A program made the position numbers and the translations under genes. Of a stretch of 56,191 bases of DNA, positions 2,561-14,945 are shown in pieces. The notes beneath the pieces were generated by a model. The model saw only the letters and a program-made list of their open reading frames with translations. It did no database searches and was not told the origin of the DNA. This DNA comes from Planktothrix serta PCC 8927 (GTDB lineage Bacteria > Cyanobacteriota > Cyanobacteriia > Cyanobacteriales > Microcoleaceae). Within the stretch, counting starts at the first letter, position 1. Every line of letters begins with the position of its first letter. The stretch is taken from positions 1 to 56,191 of the forward strand of contig NZ_LR734883.1 in the NCBI RefSeq assembly GCF_900010725.2, in the 5' to 3' direction.

Positions 2561-3035
2561 CCACTAACCGTAACCTCCGAATCTTAACTTTATATAAACT
2601 TTTGACACAAAAGCCCCTCAACCTTTTATATCATAGGTATTACAAGCCCTAAGATTTCATCTGTCAATGTAAAGATAGACTTAAAGATTTAATTAACCTG
2701 ATCGGAATGTCCTGAAATGGAAGGACACCCTGGATCAAAATATGCCATTATGGCAACAGGTCTTACGTCCATAGACAGCTTGGTTGAATATCAGAATCCT
2801 CTACTTATCTGAAAAGCAATCCCGTTGTCAGACCAAAGTTTTTACTGGATTTCGCTTGACTCTTGTTTGTAGGAGTCTCGATTTTCATGGGGATATTACC
2901 CTTCCGAAGAAACTTTGAACCGAAGGCTAGAGAAGCCTAATTTCATATTTCTACGGGTTGTTTCACCGATTGCCAATTCACACTATTTATTCCCTCGCAA
3001 CAATGCTTAACCCCAACTTTACTGAACGGGAGCGG
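2561..3035. other. Non-coding stretch upstream of the C39/ABC gene
   Basis: No convincing gene. It contains the palindrome at 2742-2756 described separately, and an imperfect repeat TGTCCTGAAATGGAAGGACA near 2708. A TTG at 2958 opens the next frame earlier, but the residues it adds (MFHRLPIHTIYSL) do not look like exporter sequence. The promoter of the exporter is probably here, but no clean -35/-10 pair stands out. Confidence 0.5.
2742..2756. promoter_or_regulatory. Palindrome TGCCATTATGGCA (site 1 of 6)
   Basis: A perfect 13-bp dyad about 280 bases upstream of the exporter start. On the minus strand it reads GTTGCCATAATGGCA, fitting the consensus TTGCCA-www-TGGCA of the five other copies in this island. 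Operator function is inferred. Confidence 0.45.
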
Positions 3036-6000
3036 ATGTCCATTCCTAACCCCAAGATTTCTCAGTCCTTATTGATTGCAACCTTAGAAAATTTATTAAC
3101 ACAAATTCAAGCCGATACTACTCATGTTGAAGCTTGGAGTCAAGACTGGCATCTCCACTCGTTTCAACTGGGAGATTGTATTAACAGCTTACCCCTTTCC
3201 CCCCAAAAAACTGTTCATACCGAACCTAACCTAAAACCCTTGGTTTACTTGGTGCTTGCAGGTCGCGTCCGACTCCTGGCTGAGGACAAACATCTCAATC
3301 GGGAGGTTTCGGTTTTAGTTGTTGAACCCGGTGAAACCTTTGGGGGGGATCAACAGGGATGGGAATACTCCCATTTATCCTATCAAGCGATCGCCACCAA
3401 TGATGTCATCGTTGCCTCAATTTCCATTGTCGAACTCCAGACCCAGATTAAACAGATTCCGGCGCTACAAACCTATCTACAAACCACCATTGAAAACCGA
3501 CAACGGTTATTATTTTTCAAAACACAAACAAACTTGCGACGGTTCACCAGTTACCGACTCCAAGAGATTTTATCCAACTGCACCGAACATCACATCAGCG
3601 CTGGAACTGCCTTACTGAAGGCGATCCCAACGGAACCTGGACGGTTTTGGCTGTACCAAGGAGAAATTACAGGGGCCGATATTGTTCCCCAAGTGGGCGA
3701 CAGTTGGGGAGAACTCGATCCCATCCCCCCAGAATGGAGGGCTGCAACGGAGTTAGTCGTGTATCAACTTCCCACAGAAACCTTCCAGACAACATCTGTA
3801 CAAGGTGGGAAATCCCAGATCCAGAAACAGCAGATAACCGTATCCCCTAAACCTGCAACCGTTAACCCCACCCCGGTTATTGTTCCCCAAACCCCCCAAA
3901 CCCTCAGCTTTCCCCAACCTAAACGTCAACGAGTCTGGCGAGGATTTTGGCAACGCTATCCCTTTGTCGAACAGCAAAGCTCCTCCGACTGTGGGGTTGC
4001 TTGTTTGGCGATGATTAGTCAGTATTGGGGAAAATATTTGAGTATCAATACCCTGCGTAATATTGCGGATGTGGGACGCTCAGGGGTATCTTTAAAAAAC
4101 CTCACCCTCACCTCAGAACGCTTAGGGTATCAGGCGCGACCTGTACGGGCAAGTTTGAATCGTTTAGAAACTGAAAAAAACCCTTGGATTGCCCACTGGC
4201 AGGGGGATCATTATATTGTGGTCTATAAAGTTCGTCGCCATCAAGTGGTGATTGCTGATCCGGCGGAGGGCAAAAAAACCCTCTCTCGTCAGGCATTTTT
4301 AACGGGATGGACGGGCTATGCTTTACTATTAGAACCCACCGATCAATTCTATGAACTCAAAGAGCAAAAACGTTCTCTCGGTCGGTTTGCGGGGGTAATT
4401 TGGCCTCATCGATTTTTGGGATTACAAATTATTCTGTTATCCCTATTAATTCAGGTATTTGGAATTGTCACTCCGTTATTAACCCAGATTATTTTAGATC
4501 GGGTGGTGGTGAATAAAAGCATCACCAGTTTGAATGTATTTGCCTTGGGATTGTTATTGTTTGGGGTGTGGAGTTTAGGCTTATCTTCGATTCGACAATA
4601 TCTATTGAGTTACTTATCAAATCGCTTAGATTTAACCCTAATTGGGGGGTTTATTTACCACGCTCTACAACTTCCTTTAAAGTTCTTTGAGTCCCGTCGT
4701 GTCGGGGATATCATTACCCGCGTTCAAGAAAATCAGAAAATTCAACGGTTTCTCGTCGGTCAAATTTTGTTGTCTGCGTTGAATGTTGTAACCGGGTTTG
4801 TGTATTTAGGATTGATGCTTTATTACAACTGGAAACTTACAGTTTTAATTTTAGCAATTGTGCCTTTAATTATCATTTTAACCTTAGCAGCAACGCCAAT
4901 GTTACGGCATATTTCCCGTCAATTATTTAATGCCGCTGCTGATCAAAATTCAACTTTAGTGGAAATAATGACGGGAATTAATACGGTGAAAGCAGTAGCG
5001 GCGGAACCGGAATTGCGGTGGCGTTGGGAAGAACGATTAACTCAACAAATGAATGTTCAGTTTAAAGCTCAGAAATTAGGGATTAATTTGGGATTTATCA
5101 GTGGATTAATTAATTCTATTGGCAGTACAGCTTTACTTTGGTTTGGTGTAAATTTGGTGATCCAAGATCAGTTAACAATTGGTCAGTTTGTCGCCTTTAA
5201 TATGATGCAGGGTTATGTAATTAGTCCGATTCTGGCTTTAGTGGGATTATGGGATGAATTGCAAGAAGTTTTAATTTCAGTTGAACGGTTAAATGATGTG
5301 TTTGAACAGGAACCGGAAGAAAGCCCCCAAAAACCGTTAATTATATTACCCCAAATTCAAGGAGAAATTCATTTCGATAACGTTACTTTTCGTTATCAAG
5401 AAGATGCAGAAACGAATACTCTGCAAAATCTTTCTTTTAAATTTTCCCCCGGTCAAACTATTGCGATTGTGGGGCGTAGTGGTTCCGGGAAAAGCACCCT
5501 AGTTAAATTACTGCAAGGGTTGTATCATCCCACAACCGGACAGATTTATGTTGATGGACATGAAATTCGTCATGTTTCTCCCCCTTCTTTACGTTCACAA
5601 ATGGGCGTTGTTCCCCAGGACTGTTATTTATTTTCAGGAACGCTTTTAGAGAATATTACTCTGTATCGAGATGAATATAATTTAGATCAGGTGATTGAGG
5701 CTGCTAAATTAGCGGAAGTTCATGGGTTTATTCAGAGTTTACCATTAGGATATTATACCAAAGTTGGAGAACGGGGATCAAGTTTATCGGGAGGACAACG
5801 GCAGCGAGTTGCGATCGCCAGAGCTTTATTAGGAAGTCCTAGAATTTTAATTTTAGATGAGGCTACCAGTTCTTTAGATACTGAAAGTGAACACCGTTTT
5901 CAACGCAATTTAGAACAGATGCAACGCGATCGCACCACGATTATTATTGCCCATCGTCTCTCAACGGTCAGAAGTGCTGATTGTATTCTGGTTTTAGACC

Positions 6001-6092
6001 GAGGGATTTTAGTAGAAAAAGGAACTCATGAACACCTGATGGCGACTCAAGGACTCTACTACCATTTAGCCCAACAACAACTCGATTTATGA
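3036..6092 (+). CDS. Peptidase C39 / ABC exporter (PCAT) with N-terminal cyclic-nucleotide-binding-like domain
   Basis: An inner-membrane exporter of about 1018 residues. The ATG at 3036 has GGGAG six bases upstream and is preferred to a TTG at 2958. Order of domains: cNMP-binding-like region about 25-240; C39 cysteine peptidase about 305-440 with catalytic Cys319 (SSDCGVACLAMI), His392 (GDHYIVVY) and Asp408 (IADPAEG); ABC transmembrane domain about 450-740; ATPase with Walker A GRSGSGKST at 813-821, signature LSGGQRQR at 917, Walker B ILILDEATSSLD and the H-loop IIIAHRLSTV. All catalytic residues are present. Such proteins cut leader peptides after a double glycine and export the rest. The adaptor gene lies downstream, and three matching substrates lie at 9601-12663. 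Confidence 0.95.
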   Translation: MSIPNPKISQSLLIATLENLLTQIQADTTHVEAWSQDWHLHSFQLGDCINSLPLSPQKTVHTEPNLKPLVYLVLAGRVRLLAEDKHLNREVSVLVVEPGETFGGDQQGWEYSHLSYQAIATNDVIVASISIVELQTQIKQIPALQTYLQTTIENRQRLLFFKTQTNLRRFTSYRLQEILSNCTEHHISAGTALLKAIPTEPGRFWLYQGEITGADIVPQVGDSWGELDPIPPEWRAATELVVYQLPTETFQTTSVQGGKSQIQKQQITVSPKPATVNPTPVIVPQTPQTLSFPQPKRQRVWRGFWQRYPFVEQQSSSDCGVACLAMISQYWGKYLSINTLRNIADVGRSGVSLKNLTLTSERLGYQARPVRASLNRLETEKNPWIAHWQGDHYIVVYKVRRHQVVIADPAEGKKTLSRQAFLTGWTGYALLLEPTDQFYELKEQKRSLGRFAGVIWPHRFLGLQIILLSLLIQVFGIVTPLLTQIILDRVVVNKSITSLNVFALGLLLFGVWSLGLSSIRQYLLSYLSNRLDLTLIGGFIYHALQLPLKFFESRRVGDIITRVQENQKIQRFLVGQILLSALNVVTGFVYLGLMLYYNWKLTVLILAIVPLIIILTLAATPMLRHISRQLFNAAADQNSTLVEIMTGINTVKAVAAEPELRWRWEERLTQQMNVQFKAQKLGINLGFISGLINSIGSTALLWFGVNLVIQDQLTIGQFVAFNMMQGYVISPILALVGLWDELQEVLISVERLNDVFEQEPEESPQKPLIILPQIQGEIHFDNVTFRYQEDAETNTLQNLSFKFSPGQTIAIVGRSGSGKSTLVKLLQGLYHPTTGQIYVDGHEIRHVSPPSLRSQMGVVPQDCYLFSGTLLENITLYRDEYNLDQVIEAAKLAEVHGFIQSLPLGYYTKVGERGSSLSGGQRQRVAIARALLGSPRILILDEATSSLDTESEHRFQRNLEQMQRDRTTIIIAHRLSTVRSADCILVLDRGILVEKGTHEHLMATQGLYYHLAQQQLDL

Positions 6093-6516: not shown

Positions 6517-8202
6517 ATGAAACCGCACAAACTGTTTTCCTCTTTCAAGACAAATATTGATCATCACCCAGACCCCCGATTGTCTATAACCACACCGGAG
6601 GAATACTTACAGGATCTAGAATTCAGTCTGGAAAAAACAGAACAAACCGATCAGATTTATGGCGGGATAGCGGGTTCTGTTCCCTTTCCCGGACTGACAC
6701 CTCCCGTAACAGATGTCGCCCCCAAAAAATCTCCCCATCTACCCAATGTTCCGGCTCCAAAAGCAGACTGGTCAAGTGCTTTACAATCTTTACTTGATCA
6801 ACCGCCAGCGTCTTTTCCTCTGCAATTAATGTTAGGAGGATTTATTTTTTGTGTGGCGTTTGTCGCCTGGGGATATTTTGGAACCGTTGATGAAGTGGGT
6901 CAAGCCAGAGGTCAATTAGCACCCCAAGGGAAAGTTTTCAAAATTCATCCCGTTGAGTTAGGAAAAGTTTCTCAAATTCCGATTAAAGAAGGACAAACTG
7001 TTAAAAAAGGTGAGGTTTTAGCCGAACTGGATCGACAGATTGCCACGACAGAATTAACGAGATTACAACAACAACTCACCTCTTTTAAAGCTGAACTGAC
7101 TCAAAAACAAGGCTTAATTGAACGAATTCATTTAGAAGCCCAAACTCAATCGGCGATCGCCAGGGCTCAAATTCAAGCTCAACAGGCGAGTATTGAACGA
7201 GTAAAAAGCCAAATTGCCTCGAATCAACGGTTACTAAATCAACTCAATTTTGAAGCCAAAGTAACTCAAGAACGAGTTGAATCTTTACAACCCTTAAAAG
7301 CTGAAACTCAAACCCTAATTGAAAAATTACAGGAGGGAGAATTAGCGGCTCAAGAAAGGCTAGAACGGCTACAACCTCTATTAGAAAGTGGCGCTATTTC
7401 TAAAGATTTGTTATTTCAAGCTGAACAAAATCTGCGGGATCAACAACGAGCCATTGTTCAAGCGCAATTATCAGAAAAAAATAGTACCCAAGAACAGATT
7501 TTTCAAGCGGAACAAACCTTCCGGGATCGACAACGATTAATCACCCAATCTCAAGGAGAATTAAAACAATCTCAAGTTGAAATTGAACGATTGAATGCGG
7601 AGTTAGCCCAAAGACAAGCAGAGGCGAAAACAATTCAAGTCGAAACTCAGCAAAAAATTCAACAAACTGAGTTAGAAGTAACGCAGTTACAAGCGCAAAT
7701 TAAAGACACTCAAAACTTGATCGCAACGGCTGAAGCCAAACTTCAAGAACGATACCTCTATTCCCCTGTTGATGGTATTGTTTCTACCTTGAATGTGTTT
7801 AACAAGGGAGAAGTGATTCAACCCGGACAAACCGTTGCTGAAATTACACCCAAAAATGCACCCTTGATTTTAACTGCAAGTCTCCCAAATGACAAAGCCG
7901 GATTTGTGAAAACCGGAATGTCGGTTAAAGTCAAATTTGATGCTTATCCTTATCAAAATTATGGGGTGTTTGAAGGGATTGTTAACTCAATTTCACCCGA
8001 TGCTAAAGTTGATGAAGGAGTTGGCTCTGTTTATAAATTAGAAATTGTGTTAAAAAAGGATTATATTTTGCAACAGGAGCAGAAAATTAAGTTAAAACCT
8101 GGACAAACGGCTAGTGCGGATATTATCATTCGTCGTCGTCGAATTCTGGATATTCTGCTTAATCCGATTCTGCAATTGCAGAAAAGTGGCATCGATTTGT
8201 AA
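6517..8202 (+). CDS. HlyD-family periplasmic adaptor (membrane fusion protein)
   Basis: A 561-residue adaptor. A cytoplasmic N-terminus of about 95 residues precedes one membrane segment (FPLQLMLGGFIFCVAFVAWGYF, about 100-122). A half lipoyl domain (GKVSQIPIKEGQTVKKGEVLAELD, about 150-173) follows, then a long coiled coil (about 175-415), the second half lipoyl domain (YLYSPVDGIVSTLNVFNKGEVIQPGQ) and a beta barrel (LTASLPNDKAGFVKTGMSVKVKFDAYPYQNYG). This is the full architecture of an HlyD-type protein linking an inner-membrane ABC exporter to TolC. It follows the C39/ABC gene on the same strand, the usual pairing. Its last 15 codons are duplicated at 8874-8919. Confidence 0.93.
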   Translation: MKPHKLFSSFKTNIDHHPDPRLSITTPEEYLQDLEFSLEKTEQTDQIYGGIAGSVPFPGLTPPVTDVAPKKSPHLPNVPAPKADWSSALQSLLDQPPASFPLQLMLGGFIFCVAFVAWGYFGTVDEVGQARGQLAPQGKVFKIHPVELGKVSQIPIKEGQTVKKGEVLAELDRQIATTELTRLQQQLTSFKAELTQKQGLIERIHLEAQTQSAIARAQIQAQQASIERVKSQIASNQRLLNQLNFEAKVTQERVESLQPLKAETQTLIEKLQEGELAAQERLERLQPLLESGAISKDLLFQAEQNLRDQQRAIVQAQLSEKNSTQEQIFQAEQTFRDRQRLITQSQGELKQSQVEIERLNAELAQRQAEAKTIQVETQQKIQQTELEVTQLQAQIKDTQNLIATAEAKLQERYLYSPVDGIVSTLNVFNKGEVIQPGQTVAEITPKNAPLILTASLPNDKAGFVKTGMSVKVKFDAYPYQNYGVFEGIVNSISPDAKVDEGVGSVYKLEIVLKKDYILQQEQKIKLKPGQTASADIIIRRRRILDILLNPILQLQKSGIDL

Positions 8203-8239
8203 ACACTACTTACAGATTAGGAGTAAAGAAAATGTCAGC
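8158..8239 (+). repeat. Direct repeat, copy 1 (end of hlyD-like gene + leader + vestigial hetP start)
   Basis: 82 bases from the last codons of the adaptor gene through its stop to ATGTCAGCA. They match 8874-8956 with only four or so differences. In this copy the ATG at 8232 opens M-S-A followed directly by TGA, a vestige of the start of the HetP-family gene (MSAQ...). The two copies bracket the DUF6883/DUF4926 cassette. Confidence 0.9.
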
Positions 8240-8873: not shown

Positions 8874-8956
8874 CTTAATCCGATTCTGCAATTGCAGAAA
8901 AATGGCATCGATTTGTAAAACACTACTTACAGATGAGGAGTAAAGAAAATGTCGGC
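8874..8956 (+). repeat. Direct repeat, copy 2 (in front of the HetP-family gene)
   Basis: 83 bases matching 8158-8239: a non-translated copy of the adaptor's last 15 codons, the spacer with GAGGAGTAAAGAAA, and the functional start ATGTCGGCT of the next gene. It supplies that gene with its ribosome binding site. Confidence 0.9.
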
Positions 8957-9341
8957 TCAATATTCCTACAATAACTCGAAAGTTGCTAAAACGATGAGTG
9001 AAGAACAATTTGAACAAATCCTAGATGCAATTCTATCAGGAAAATATTCTTGGGCTTGTGTTTTAATTCTGCGTTTTGCTGGGTATAATCCCCTGCATTA
9101 TATTCCTTATCGGACTTACAACCGACTGACTAAGGATAATAATTCTAATCGTCAGCCTCCAAGTAACAGTGTTTCGGTTCAGTCCAGCATTAAAACTAAG
9201 ACCTCTGCTAATGTTAATGTTAACCCAATTCGGGACTTAACTTATTTAGAACCCATTCCCGAAGCGGGTCATGGGGTTTCGGGGGGATGTCGGAATTTAG
9301 AAGTTCACAAAGGCTTGTCTACCCATTGGACATTTAATTAA
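8949..9341 (+). CDS. HetP-family protein with C-terminal double-glycine leader-like tail
   Basis: 130 residues. Residues about 14-60 ([43 protein letters not shown]) are the conserved HetP core. A low-complexity linker (about 62-95) leads to a tail [20 protein letters not shown], ending in GG at 112-113 and followed by 17 residues, [17 protein letters not shown]. The tail matches the leaders of the three precursors at 9601-12663 (I-x-D-L-x-Y-L-E...GG). GAGGAG upstream fixes the start. HetP proteins act in heterocyst commitment in Nostoc; in an organism without heterocysts the role must differ. It may be a leader-bearing substrate or a decoy/regulator of the exporter. A terminator follows. Confidence 0.88.
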
Positions 9342-9600: not shown

Positions 9601-9924
9601 TCAGTTGGGCAAGTCCATTGCTTTTATCTTCAGAGTCTCAAAAGCATAGTCTTCTCCTTTTCCAGAACCAACTTTAATCTTGACTTTATCAAAGCCTAGG
9701 TAGTAAACATCAACATCAGCTAGAGGATTTGTGCCAAGAGCAAGGGCTGTTCCTATTCCTGTTGCTTTTGTCACTTTACCTTTATTTTTAATCTCAACAT
9801 CTGTAATCGCCAACGTGCTCCCAGTCCCGACCGACGCAGAGGCAGTTAATGCCAATAAAGCCCCTCCTAAAATTAACTCGTTTTCACAAATATTTTCCAA
9901 GTAGGATAAATCTGCAATCATCAT
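9601..9924 (-). CDS. Double-glycine precursor peptide 1
   Basis: 107 residues with leader MMIADLSYLENICENELILGG, then a predicted 86-residue mature part beginning ALLALTASASVG. The mature part has no cysteine, is rich in Ala, Gly, Thr and Lys, and alternates short strand-like segments (VEIKNKGKVTKA, VDVYYLGFDKVKIKV). Leader motif and GG match the other two precursors and the tail of the HetP-family protein, so it is a likely C39 substrate. The second ATG (9919-9921) is an equally possible start. The activity of the mature peptide is unknown. Confidence 0.8.
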   Translation of the reverse strand: MMIADLSYLENICENELILGGALLALTASASVGTGSTLAITDVEIKNKGKVTKATGIGTALALGTNPLADVDVYYLGFDKVKIKVGSGKGEDYAFETLKIKAMDLPN

Positions 9925-11808: not shown

Positions 11809-12135
11809 TTAAATATGGGTTAAATTCAGCGAAATTGAAGTATCAAAACTTGAAGATGAAGCAGTCTCATTTCCTGTTTTTGCATAAGCAATGGCTGTTG
11901 CCTTAGATTTACTAGATTTGAGACTACCCACTTTTTTAACCTCTGTTTTGGTATTAGTAATCGTATAAGTCATCTCACCGATAGCACCAGCACCAGCACC
12001 AGCTACGGCATATTCAGACCCCGTTGCTGTCATTGTATTTGTACTAGCGAAAACTCTGCGACCACCTAATACAATATTGCTTTCAGTAATGGGTTGTAAA
12101 TAACTTAAGTCAGAGATGATTAAGAAACTGCTCAT
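11809..12135 (-). CDS. Double-glycine precursor peptide 2
   Basis: Start chosen at the ATG 12133-12135 because GAGGT lies five bases upstream; an in-frame ATG nine codons earlier is less likely. The product has 108 residues: leader MSSFLIISDLSYLQPITESN then IVLGG at 21-25, and an 83-residue mature part starting RRVFASTN. The mature part is rich in Ser, Thr, Ala and Gly, has no cysteine, and ends SSSFDTSISLNLTHI. Co-directional with the acyltransferase gene 36 bases downstream. Confidence 0.82.
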   Translation of the reverse strand: MSSFLIISDLSYLQPITESNIVLGGRRVFASTNTMTATGSEYAVAGAGAGAIGEMTYTITNTKTEVKKVGSLKSSKSKATAIAYAKTGNETASSSSFDTSISLNLTHI

Positions 12136-12369: not shown

Positions 12370-12663
12370 TTACCACGGGAAGCTATAGCTATTACCAGTG
12401 CCAGAAGTAGAAGTGGCATTAGAGAACGAGGTATGATCGTCAGTAAAGGTGCTAGTGATTGCCTGAGAAGATGTATTATTACCCTCAGCAAGTGCATCTG
12501 CTTCAGCACCAGCAAAGTTTCCTTTAACATCAACGGTAGAGGCTAATTTCAGCTTGATTTTCAATTTTTGTTTTGTAGAAGTGTAGGTGCTCTCGCCAAA
12601 GTAATAGCCACCTTGAATGTTTTCTTGAGCAGTTTCTAAGTAGTTCAGATCAGAAATAATCAT
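12370..12663 (-). CDS. Double-glycine precursor peptide 3
   Basis: 97 residues. The shortest leader of the set (MIISDLNYLETAQENIQGG) precedes a 78-residue mature part YYFGESTYTS..., with a basic strand KQKLKIKLKL, an acidic Ala-rich middle and a Ser/Thr-rich end closing with SYSFPW. No cysteine. AGGAC lies seven bases before the ATG. As the first gene of the minus-strand run it is nearest to the palindrome cluster (12739-13047), so its promoter is probably the regulated one. Confidence 0.82.
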   Translation of the reverse strand: MIISDLNYLETAQENIQGGYYFGESTYTSTKQKLKIKLKLASTVDVKGNFAGAEADALAEGNNTSSQAITSTFTDDHTSFSNATSTSGTGNSYSFPW

Positions 12664-13047: not shown

Positions 13048-13179
13048 ACAACGATCTTGATAACTTAGTTACAATCTGATTTGACTGATAAAGTGTTCAA
13101 AATTGGTAAATAATACCTAATCTGAAAGTTCTTGAATTTTTGGATTTTTACCACATCAACTTATTTCCTTTCATGGCAA

Positions 13180-14184
13180 ATGAGCAATATTACCAACAGT
13201 TCGAGCGATATTCTCGTCATCCTAGATGAGCTTATAAATACAGTATCTCCAACTACCACAATTAACTCCCCCGATGCCAATTTTCAGGGGAGTAGTTCTA
13301 GTTCTAGTTCTAGTTCTATTGTCAATGACATCGGTGCGGGAGGAGAAAGTCAAGCTACCACAACTTCCCCAACCGGAGAAGTCCAAAACAGTAGTGAGTC
13401 TGTATTTATTCCTGATGCTACTTCTAGTGAAGCGACAGCAACAGCTATTAGTGGTACGGATATATTACCCACGACAGAGACAACCGTAATCCTAGAACCT
13501 GATAATAATAATAACGATAATAATTCTAGTTCTAGTATCTTAATTCAGATTAGTCCAGAACCGAATCCTTTGACCTTTGTGGCTTCTGAAATTGAACGCA
13601 TACCACAACTCGGTAGTATCGAAAATGATCAACTCATTGGTAGCAATGAGAATGACTCAATACTCGGACTTAAAGGCGCCGATAAAATTGAAGGTAGAAA
13701 TGGAACAGACTTATTACAAGGAAACGAAGGTAATGATACTCTTGATGGAGGAGATGATCAAGATTTTGTTAGAGGGGGAAAAGGCAATGATATCTTAATC
13801 GGTGGCAACGGTGATGATATTCTGATTGGTGATCTAGGTCAGGATGAATTAATAGGAGGAGCAGGTGCGGATGTATTCGTTTTAAGCACAAATCCCAATT
13901 TCCCCAACACCAACCCGAATTTAGCAGATATAATTACAGACTTTAATGCAGATGAAGCTGATCAGATTGGATTGTCGGAAAACTTAATCGCACAACCGTT
14001 AATATTAGAAACCTTTGATTCTGATGCTGATGGTAATCTTGATGCTACCGTAATTAAACTCAGTAGCGATAGTCAATCTGAAGTTCTGGGTGTTGTGTTA
14101 GGTACAGTTTCTGACAATGGACAAACAAAATTAACGTCAGCCGATTTTATAGTAATTTCTAACGATCTGCTAATGTTAAGCTAA
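13180..14184 (+). CDS. RTX-type calcium-binding secreted protein
   Basis: 334 residues from the ATG at 13180 (MSNITNSSSDILVILDEL); an earlier TTG frame start adds unlikely sequence. The N-terminal half is Ser/Thr/Asn-rich, including nine serines encoded by a hexamer repeat AGTTCT at 13291-13317. Residues about 155-235 hold around eight RTX nonapeptides (GSNENDSILG, GNEGNDTLDGG, GGKGNDILIGG, GGNGDDILIG, GGAGADVFVL). The C-terminus is acidic and strand-like (ADIITDFNADEADQIGL). There is no signal peptide, as expected for type I secretion. It could use the exporter of this island or another one; it has no GG leader. Confidence 0.85.
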   Translation: MSNITNSSSDILVILDELINTVSPTTTINSPDANFQGSSSSSSSSSIVNDIGAGGESQATTTSPTGEVQNSSESVFIPDATSSEATATAISGTDILPTTETTVILEPDNNNNDNNSSSSILIQISPEPNPLTFVASEIERIPQLGSIENDQLIGSNENDSILGLKGADKIEGRNGTDLLQGNEGNDTLDGGDDQDFVRGGKGNDILIGGNGDDILIGDLGQDELIGGAGADVFVLSTNPNFPNTNPNLADIITDFNADEADQIGLSENLIAQPLILETFDSDADGNLDATVIKLSSDSQSEVLGVVLGTVSDNGQTKLTSADFIVISNDLLMLS

Positions 14185-14204
14185 AAGAGTTGGGATTACC
14201 ACAA

Positions 14205-14945
14205 ATGATCATGGTTCAACTTTCCAAAGACTTACTTGATGATGAGGAAATTATTGGTTTCCTAAAACGAAATCTGGAATTTAAGGAAGTCTATCAGAAG
14301 ATATTGTCTCAAAAAGTAATCAATCAAGTTGCTGAGGAAAGAGCAATTACGGTAACGGCTGAAGAAATTCAAACCCAAGCTAACCAAGAACGTTATGAAA
14401 AACGCTTAGAAAAGGCGACGGATACCTTAGCTTGGTTAGCTGACCAAATGCTCACTTCCGATGACTGGGAAGCGGGAATTCGAGAACGTCTTTTATCCCA
14501 AAAATTAGCAGAATTTTTATTTTCTAAAGAAGTTGAAAAATACTTTATTCAAAATCGCTTGAATTTTGAGCAAGTTTCATTATATCAAATTATTGTTCCT
14601 TATGAACGCTTGGCTAGAGAATTATTTTATCAAATAGAAGAAGAAGAAATTAGTTTCTATCATGCCGCCCATTTATATGATATTGACCCTAAACGTCGTG
14701 AACAATGCGGATATGAAGGTAAACTGTATCGTTGGGGATTAAAAGCGGATTTTGCAGCAATTGTATTTGGTTCAACTCCCGGAGAAATATTAAGTCCAGT
14801 CAAAACTGACCAAGGTTATCATTTAATCTTAGTTGAGGAGTTTATTCAAGCTGAATTAACTCCTCAACGTTATCAAGAGATTCTTCAAAAACTATTTAAA
14901 GATTGGTTAGCTAGTGAATTAAATTATCGGCTTTATAACGCTTAA
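14205..14945 (+). CDS. Parvulin-type peptidylprolyl isomerase (SurA/PrsA-like)
   Basis: 246 residues from ATG 14205; ATG 14211 is an alternative. An all-helical N-terminal chaperone region (KVINQVAEERAITVTAEEIQTQANQERYEK...) is followed by a rotamase domain, about 130-240 (EEEISFYHAAHLYDIDP..., FAAIVFGSTPGEILSPVKTDQGYHLILVEE). The ending GYHLI-V matches the parvulin signature. No signal peptide is seen, so it probably works in the cytoplasm. It starts 20 bases after the RTX gene and is likely co-transcribed. Such isomerases are often next to C39/HlyD exporters in cyanobacteria and may hold substrates in an export-competent state (inference). Confidence 0.8.
   Translation: MIMVQLSKDLLDDEEIIGFLKRNLEFKEVYQKILSQKVINQVAEERAITVTAEEIQTQANQERYEKRLEKATDTLAWLADQMLTSDDWEAGIRERLLSQKLAEFLFSKEVEKYFIQNRLNFEQVSLYQIIVPYERLARELFYQIEEEEISFYHAAHLYDIDPKRREQCGYEGKLYRWGLKADFAAIVFGSTPGEILSPVKTDQGYHLILVEEFIQAELTPQRYQEILQKLFKDWLASELNYRLYNA

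Follow-up and report, generated by a model that had tools for sequence, protein, structure and literature searches.

HetP proteins encoded beside the exporter gene hetC carry towards their C-terminal end a segment of the kind that stands at the front of exported peptides, and the glycine pair closing this segment tends to be weakened where HetC has been lost. We propose, at a probability of roughly 0.6, that the hetC-linked HetP is a client of HetC and that its tail is cut after GG. What leads us to infer binding and cutting is the anatomy of the tail, its conservation, its co-occurrence with HetC and the weakening of the cut site in lineages that have lost the exporter.

Under this proposal the C-terminal tail of HetP would be a double-glycine leader of the [IV]xDLxYLE class, as found on the fronts of ordinary precursors. 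The C39 peptidase domain of HetC would bind the tail and cut after GG; the cut would free the HetP core (residues 1–113) from the tail inside the cell, and the short C-terminal peptide would pass to the transporter or be discarded. HetP of non-heterocystous cyanobacteria would be part of a peptide-export cluster (HetC–HlyD–HetP plus precursors); in heterocyst formers the nearby precursors, and usually HlyD, are gone, HetP being the sole leader-class protein found beside HetC. HetC is needed for heterocysts and has no known substrate, and the tail of the neighbouring HetP offers a precise candidate. If the proposal is right, a developmental commitment switch grew from a peptide-export system still present in non-heterocystous cyanobacteria, and an exporter leader can act from the C-terminal end of a regulator.

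The HetP tail and its setting in the window

The window is the whole 56,191-nucleotide stretch of Planktothrix serta PCC 8927 DNA that was analysed. Its HetP-family protein (8949–9341, forward strand) is 130 residues long and matches NCBIfam NF037966 over residues 5–64 at 117.8 bits, against a curated cut-off of 45; no other HetP match in the 6.27 Mb genome reaches E ≤ 0.001, the two further ones having an E-value of 1.25 each. Coordinates, frame and sequence bear out the preliminary description of a HetP core followed by a 20-residue leader-like tail and 17 more residues. The core domain (residues 5–64, 8961–9140) is defined by NF037966 and AlphaFold2. The tail (residues 94–113, 9228–9287), recognised by its sequence, by a matrix score with shuffles and by conservation among orthologues, closes with the Gly-Gly codons at 9282–9287; the predicted C39 cut after residue 113 is placed by the register common to orthologues and by the dN/dS of the site. 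The C-terminal 17 residues (9288–9338), weakly conserved among relatives, are the predicted released peptide. All of these lie on the forward strand.

AlphaFold2, run with 64 sequences, gives a confident three-helix core at residues 18–65 (predicted helices 18–29, 33–43 and 54–65; block means of 92–96 for residues 21–60). The remainder of HetP, including the tail, is modelled as disordered, with block means of 43–56 from residue 71 on, as might be expected of a leader. Neither a comparison of the HetP profile with PDB sequences (best E 0.92) nor Foldseek with the HetP model (best E 2.5) returned a relative, and a weak Pfam TnsE_C match (E 0.2) was set aside.

Three genes on the reverse strand encode precursor peptides: 9601–9924 with leader MMIADLSYLENICENELILGG (MMIADLSYLE..LGG; leader profile E 1.6e-8), 11809–12135 with leader LIISDLSYLQPITESNIVLGG (LIISDLSYLQ..LGG; 1.0e-8) and 12370–12663 with leader MIISDLNYLETAQENIQGG (MIISDLNYLE..QGG; 3.5e-9). 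The preliminary description saw the same motif in these leaders and in the HetP tail, and sequence comparison together with a two-block matrix agrees in placing them in one class. The matrix joins an xxDLxYLE block to a [hydrophobic]-x-G-G block by a free spacer and derives from 44 precursor leaders selected in the fetched loci by a motif pattern, family f1 being left out for the window test. The window tail scores 23.1 bits, a value reached by none of 20,000 shuffles of the post-core stretch of the window HetP, and on this ground chance likeness to leaders was rejected. Among 33,929 non-HetP ORFs of the fetched loci 53 reach the score of the window tail; 21 of these were inspected and all are leader-like, some being training rows of the matrix. 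A fixed 21-position leader profile, searched against 25 whole genomes, missed the window HetP tail at E ≤ 1 and recovered the three window precursors at E 3.5e-9 to 1.6e-8, their leaders being themselves rows of that profile; the miss is probably due to the longer spacer of HetP tails, usually of 8 residues, as against 5–9 in precursors.

The window tail has the leader block, a hydrophobic residue at −4 and GG. Known double-glycine leaders are N-terminal and are removed, whereas this one occupies residues 94–113 of 130: it sits towards the C-terminal end of a regulator, so that the conserved protein is what precedes GG. Judged by its sequence, the window HetP would work like an ordinary GG precursor, yet it is not classed as one.

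The gene at 2958–6092 (forward strand) encodes a HetC-type exporter, with a weak cNMP match (17.9 bits, under Pfam's own cut-off of 27.5), a C39 peptidase domain with the catalytic Cys, His and Asp, and ABC membrane and ATPase domains. It scores 663.7 bits against HetC profile A1, of which it is itself one row. The PDB relatives of its C39 domain are the peptidase domains of bacteriocin exporters and of ComA; entries for PCAT1 and LahT stand among them. The C39 exporters PCAT1, LahT and ComA have the same catalytic Cys/His/Asp, and the leaders of their class end in GG with a hydrophobic residue at −4.

The exporter gene lies 2.8 kb upstream of hetP on the same strand; an HlyD-type membrane fusion protein (6517–8202, forward strand; TIGR01843, 257.9 bits, cut-off 208.65) and an inserted module stand in between. 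The module, 716 bp with DUF6883 and DUF4926 genes, was inserted at the hlyD–hetP junction and is flanked by a repeat of about 83 bp (8158–8239 and 8874–8956, 95–98% identical); a remnant of the hetP start was thereby left behind at 8233. Two genomes of the same genus have hetP beginning within about 35 nt after hlyD. Elsewhere in the window, 13132–14184 carries GNEGNDTLDGG-type repeats, by eye like those of RTX proteins secreted by type I systems, and the gene at 14190–14945, after the precursors, has the look of a SurA-type peptidyl-prolyl isomerase, as in published group II clusters.

Distribution of the tail and of HetC

Of 386 genomes sampled from the phylum, 63 have HetP; 144 stretches around HetP places were fetched and 146 distinct HetP ORFs were read. 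The tail is not peculiar to the Planktothrix serta window: a recognised block is present in 61 of the 63 genomes and in ten family codes (f1, f2, f5, f6, f7, f10, f11, f14, f19 and f22). Of the two remaining genomes one has a divergent tail (G227) and the other none (G157, whose sole HetP is tail-less despite an intact HetC and precursors). Most short HetP paralogues of family f6, which we take to be the heterocyst-forming Nostocaceae, have no tail. Across a 25-row HetP alignment the block's D never varies and the first G of GG hardly does, and in genus g9 all 13 HetP tails have GG at the site. Several cargos outside f6 are short and aromatic (FRYFWW, AKNWWYF, GIAAWFR, FRELPWF).

A scan of named genomes added 80 loci (L208–L287), the best 80 of 372 relatives. 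Comparisons of the site rest on a table of 136 distinct tail-bearing rows in which identical HetP proteins are collapsed. The table covers 59 of the 63 genomes, G064 and G231 having been dropped solely as identical proteins; rows without a pattern-recognised block stand outside it (G157, G227 L084 and L173, G172 L090 and the short paralogues).

HetC profile A1 spans the N-terminal half of HetC and was built from HetP-linked exporters. At E ≤ 1e-120 it finds a HetC-type C39 exporter in 34 of 386 genomes, all 34 of them HetP genomes, and matches none of the 323 HetP-less genomes, a co-occurrence that concerns the HetC subtype at a high threshold and not all C39 exporters. HetC is present in 21 of 21 HetP genomes outside f6 and in 13 of 42 f6 genomes, its catalytic cysteine being mutated in two of the latter (G197, G249). 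The tie between tailed HetP and C39 genes that the preliminary description asked for was thus for the most part recovered: at this threshold HetC-type exporters are confined to HetP genomes, and they adjoin the tailed copy.

Among rows with an intact HetC upstream, 14 of 16 outside f6 and 6 of 39 in f6 have an HlyD-like ORF no more than 3.5 kb upstream of hetP, the six being three Fischerella loci, Westiellopsis, Pelatocladus and Chlorogloeopsis. The fetched regions contain precursors of the same leader class in 20 of 21 genomes outside f6 and in none of the 42 f6 genomes; beside HetC in f6 no other protein of the leader class was found within about 8 kb of hetP, and the exception, G298, has leader-class precursors about 10 kb further along. 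Many f6 genomes encode a second type of C39 exporter (907–1029 aa) in the neighbourhood of hetP or of a short HetP paralogue (L036, L078, L091, L156 and others), and in some of these genomes DLNYLE-class leaders stand near C39 exporters elsewhere.

The cut site with and without HetC

With an intact HetC no more than 5 kb upstream, the 136-row table holds 55 distinct tails, of which 50 read GG, one GS and four GR. Free variation of the GG and leader positions was what the preliminary description had named as telling against it; while HetC is intact, with 50 GG and one GS among 55, they do not vary freely. A Tolypothrix-like group of four rows has GR instead of GG beside an intact HetC. Where no HetC lies within 5 kb upstream, GG stands in 10 of 39 rows, and three of the ten (G070, G131, G105) have an intact HetC elsewhere. 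Rows with solely HetC fragments upstream have GG in 19 of 34, counting L237, L241 and L262; the 16 outside these three ambiguous ones suggest recent loss of HetC. A mutated HetC catalytic site goes with GG in one of two rows, and for six rows, cut off upstream by a contig end, the HetC state counts as unknown.

Within f6 alone, GG stands in 34 of 38 rows with an intact HetC upstream against 24 of 68 without. The latter divide into 6 of 28 rows from genomes searched whole and 18 of 40 named loci (L208–L287), for which absence of HetC means absence within 5 kb upstream of hetP rather than from the whole genome. Cargos of 11 residues or fewer occur in none of the 38 rows with HetC and in 40 of the 68 without, and in 6 of the 68 HetP stops before the site. 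Fisher's exact test on f6 rows with and without HetC gives 4.6e-8, a value not to be taken at face value as related rows are counted as independent. These f6 counts leave out the second copies L082 and L140 and also L237, L241 and L262, in which the HetC piece is 726–893 aa. Short cargo alone is no mark of HetC loss, because several HetC-bearing rows outside f6 carry cargos of 6–10 residues.

In genomes that lack HetC or have its cysteine mutated, HetP can end 1–4 residues past the site (G249, G197, G282, G332). The HetC lesions themselves differ in kind: many Nostoc, Desmonostoc and Komarekiella loci keep fragments; within genus g40 the catalytic residues are changed in G197 and G249, and HetC is absent from G282; and a large f6 clade with REKKSA-type ends has no HetC at all. 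L048 (3655–6705) and L062 (3661–6837) encode full-length HetC in which the catalytic cysteine has become serine, with a His to Asp change besides in L048; the HetP of both ends four residues past the cut site. The fragments, of about 30–260 aa upstream of hetP, are seen in many Nostoc-type loci (L209–L263: Nostoc, Desmonostoc, Komarekiella) despite the reported essentiality of hetC in PCC 7120, and a passage of PMC3610870 describes Nodularia spumigena CCY9414 as being without hetC.

A second HetP type, with an N-terminus like MNYQMSSSQKNFHKAIS, was grouped by eye. In G336, where it has a HetC of its own 1.8 kb upstream, its tail ends in LQGG; in G101, G350, G380 and G374 the tail is decayed or cut short, and no C39 gene was found within 8 kb of the copy. 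Going by these sequences, the second type may be a natural replicate of site decay without HetC. Tail-less second copies of HetP also stand beside intact HetC (G172 L090, G227 L173), and in G358 a tail-less HetP adjoins a HetC whose other neighbour is the tailed copy.

A tree of HetP DNA with the tail left out has 10 changes of HetC state and offers five supported independent pairs, in which GG goes the same way in an average of 2.9 and the opposite way in 0.0, and GG with cargo in 4.0 and 0.0; five are too few for significance. This test left out the second copies L082, L140 and L177, together with L237, L241 and L262. A recA tree of 48 genomes has five HetC changes on the best tree, two of them forced by well-supported branches, and yields two supported pairs, both in the expected direction and again too few for significance. 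Both tests set G070, G131 and G105, which have an intact HetC elsewhere, and G261 to HetC present; in the recA test G276 was set to lost, and G064 and G231 were given the states of their identical twins.

Selection on each segment was estimated from Nei–Gojobori counts pooled over related pairs, so that the dN/dS values that follow come from few codons and carry no confidence limits. The site tetrapeptide stands at 0.10 with HetC (38 f6 rows), 0.85 in Nostoc-type rows with hetC fragments (18 rows), 0.61 in HetC-lost f6 rows with long cargo (31 rows, overlapping the 18 Nostoc-type) and 0.33 in the REKKSA clade (18 rows); two small f1 groups of three rows each give 0.00 and 0.49. The core hardly moves over the same four f6 sets (0.12, 0.10, 0.13 and 0.10), and cargo stands at 0.47 with HetC, 0.32–0.43 without and 0.08 in the REKKSA clade. 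Across three HetC-bearing groups the core lies at 0.05–0.14, cargo at 0.47–0.69 and linker at 0.31–0.71. Going by these values, HetC would preserve the cut site more than it does the cargo.

The leader block is a different matter. Its dN/dS in f6 is 0.04 with HetC and 0.14–0.15 without, which suggests that it is kept without HetC as well: in the 68 HetC-less rows I, K, D, Y and E of the block stand at 94–97%, while the fourth block position, L, falls from 94% to 45%. Conservation of the block in these rows implies some HetC-independent use, or another reader.

Readings of the tail

The motif has been in print since 2011. Wang, Fewer and Sivonen (PMC3140520) describe KIXDLXYLEX10GG in HetP proteins near bacteriocin clusters, perhaps processed by an M16 peptidase, and list 13 HetP proteins, 10 of them in group II clusters; the motif was taken up again in 2015 (PMC4558948), with one HetP-type precursor per Subsection V genome. 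The word hetC is absent from the main text of both papers, and their passages and sections covered here state no HetC link, co-loss or C-terminal leader position. The same motif beside exporter clusters is there read as a bacteriocin precursor with an M16 peptidase, and here as a client of HetC. Motif and exporter-cluster neighbourhood had thus both been published before (PMC3140520). Within the literature searched, so far as the parts drawn on extend, no paper linking the HetP tail with HetC was found. A non-antibiotic role for small GG proteins has a parallel in EbfG1-4 of Synechococcus elongatus, whose secretion is aided by the C39 domain of PteB according to sections of PMC4997328, a paper that mentions HetP 0 times.

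Work on HetC bears on the proposal from the other side. In the sections drawn on here, PMC10986499 (2024) reports that the N-terminal domain of HetC is a working cysteine protease and that its catalytic residues are required for heterocysts; no gene with a characteristic leader was found near hetC and the client is given as unknown, HetP being pointed to by proximity and co-localisation and substrate identification being called the next crucial step. The HetC of PCC 7120 (Nostoc/Anabaena) has the same cNMP, C39 and ABC parts as that of the window, hetP adjoins hetC, and a functional link between them is argued (PMC10986499 and parts of PMC4133259). Over-expression of hetP-sf-gfp fully rescues a deletion of the hetC peptidase domain, as PMC4133259 reports in its relevant part. 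Since more HetP rescues the peptidase defect, HetC would act upstream of HetP activity; together with the constraint on the site, this makes it more likely that HetP is processed than that the released peptide alone matters, and a pure cargo-export role would not predict the rescue. A more far-reaching version, in which HetC is the activating protease of HetP, the released core commits the cell, the C-terminal peptide is exported as a signal and HetC-less lineages encode a HetP that is short from the outset, ending at the cut or close to it, we put forward tentatively, as possible but rather doubtful. HetP-GFP C-terminal fusions lie at heterocyst poles, in the peptidase-domain deletion as well (PMC4133259, in part), so that at the poles the C-terminal part is not fully removed and localisation has no need of the C39 domain. 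This tells against the client reading, as do the 24 of 68 f6 rows without intact HetC that keep GG, a leader block that outlasts HetC, the tail-less HetP copies and the GR group beside intact HetC, a weakly conserved cargo that is no more constrained where HetC is present, and the failure of the fixed leader profile to find the window tail at E ≤ 1.

The preliminary description offered three readings of the tail, a precursor with a very long N-terminal part, a docking decoy and a fossil fusion; a precursor-like client fits best. The tail might instead merely tether HetP to the C39 domain as a regulator of, or competitor at, the exporter, cutting being beside the point. Retention of the block even where GG is lost would suit such docking, as would the other likely clients of the exporter in non-heterocystous genomes and the location of both HetP and HetC fusions near heterocyst poles. 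We nevertheless think it unlikely, for the GG tetrapeptide, needless for docking alone, is the part whose constraint tracks HetC most, and PMC4133259, the partial source for the fusions, also reports similar localisation of HetP-GFP in the C39-domain deletion. A fossil fusion of a leader to HetP, now without function, is scarcely credible: tails do differ in length and cargo, but they are kept across ten families, and it is the purifying selection on the cleavage site where HetC is intact (0.10, with 0.04 for the block) that makes this reading improbable. Nor do we give much credence, short and aromatic as several cargos outside f6 are, to HetP as a simple bacteriocin-type precursor with the C-terminal peptide as product, the 2011 proposal. 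Motif and cluster neighbourhood speak for it (PMC3140520, in part); yet conservation lies in the N-terminal core, cargo is one of the loosest segments, like linker, and hetP acts in differentiation (passages of PMC4133259 and PMC6316738), all of which makes it very improbable. The suggested link of HetP with peptide export is supported for the hetC-linked orthologue and does not extend to the whole family, most short paralogues being tail-less.

Another reading has the tail bind a partner other than HetC, such as HetR, HetZ or another C39 exporter, its likeness to leaders being incidental or ancestral. Conservation of the block in the HetC-less f6 clade would fit, as would the further type of C39 exporter that many f6 genomes have close to hetP, and some f6 tails have RGS or RGG, faintly like the pentapeptide RGSGR. 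We hold it to be quite unlikely, since the tail shares its leader class with precursors encoded in the same clusters and selection on the site tracks HetC. An RGSGR-like HetR-binding motif was rejected as the main reason for the tail: arginine precedes GG in merely 5 of 20 rows outside f6, in which −4 is hydrophobic in 20 of 20 and GG present in 19 of 20. The tails of the REKKSA clade (L036, L047, L057, L037) share a conserved HREKKSA-type end, at a dN/dS of 0.08, and may perhaps have acquired a new function.
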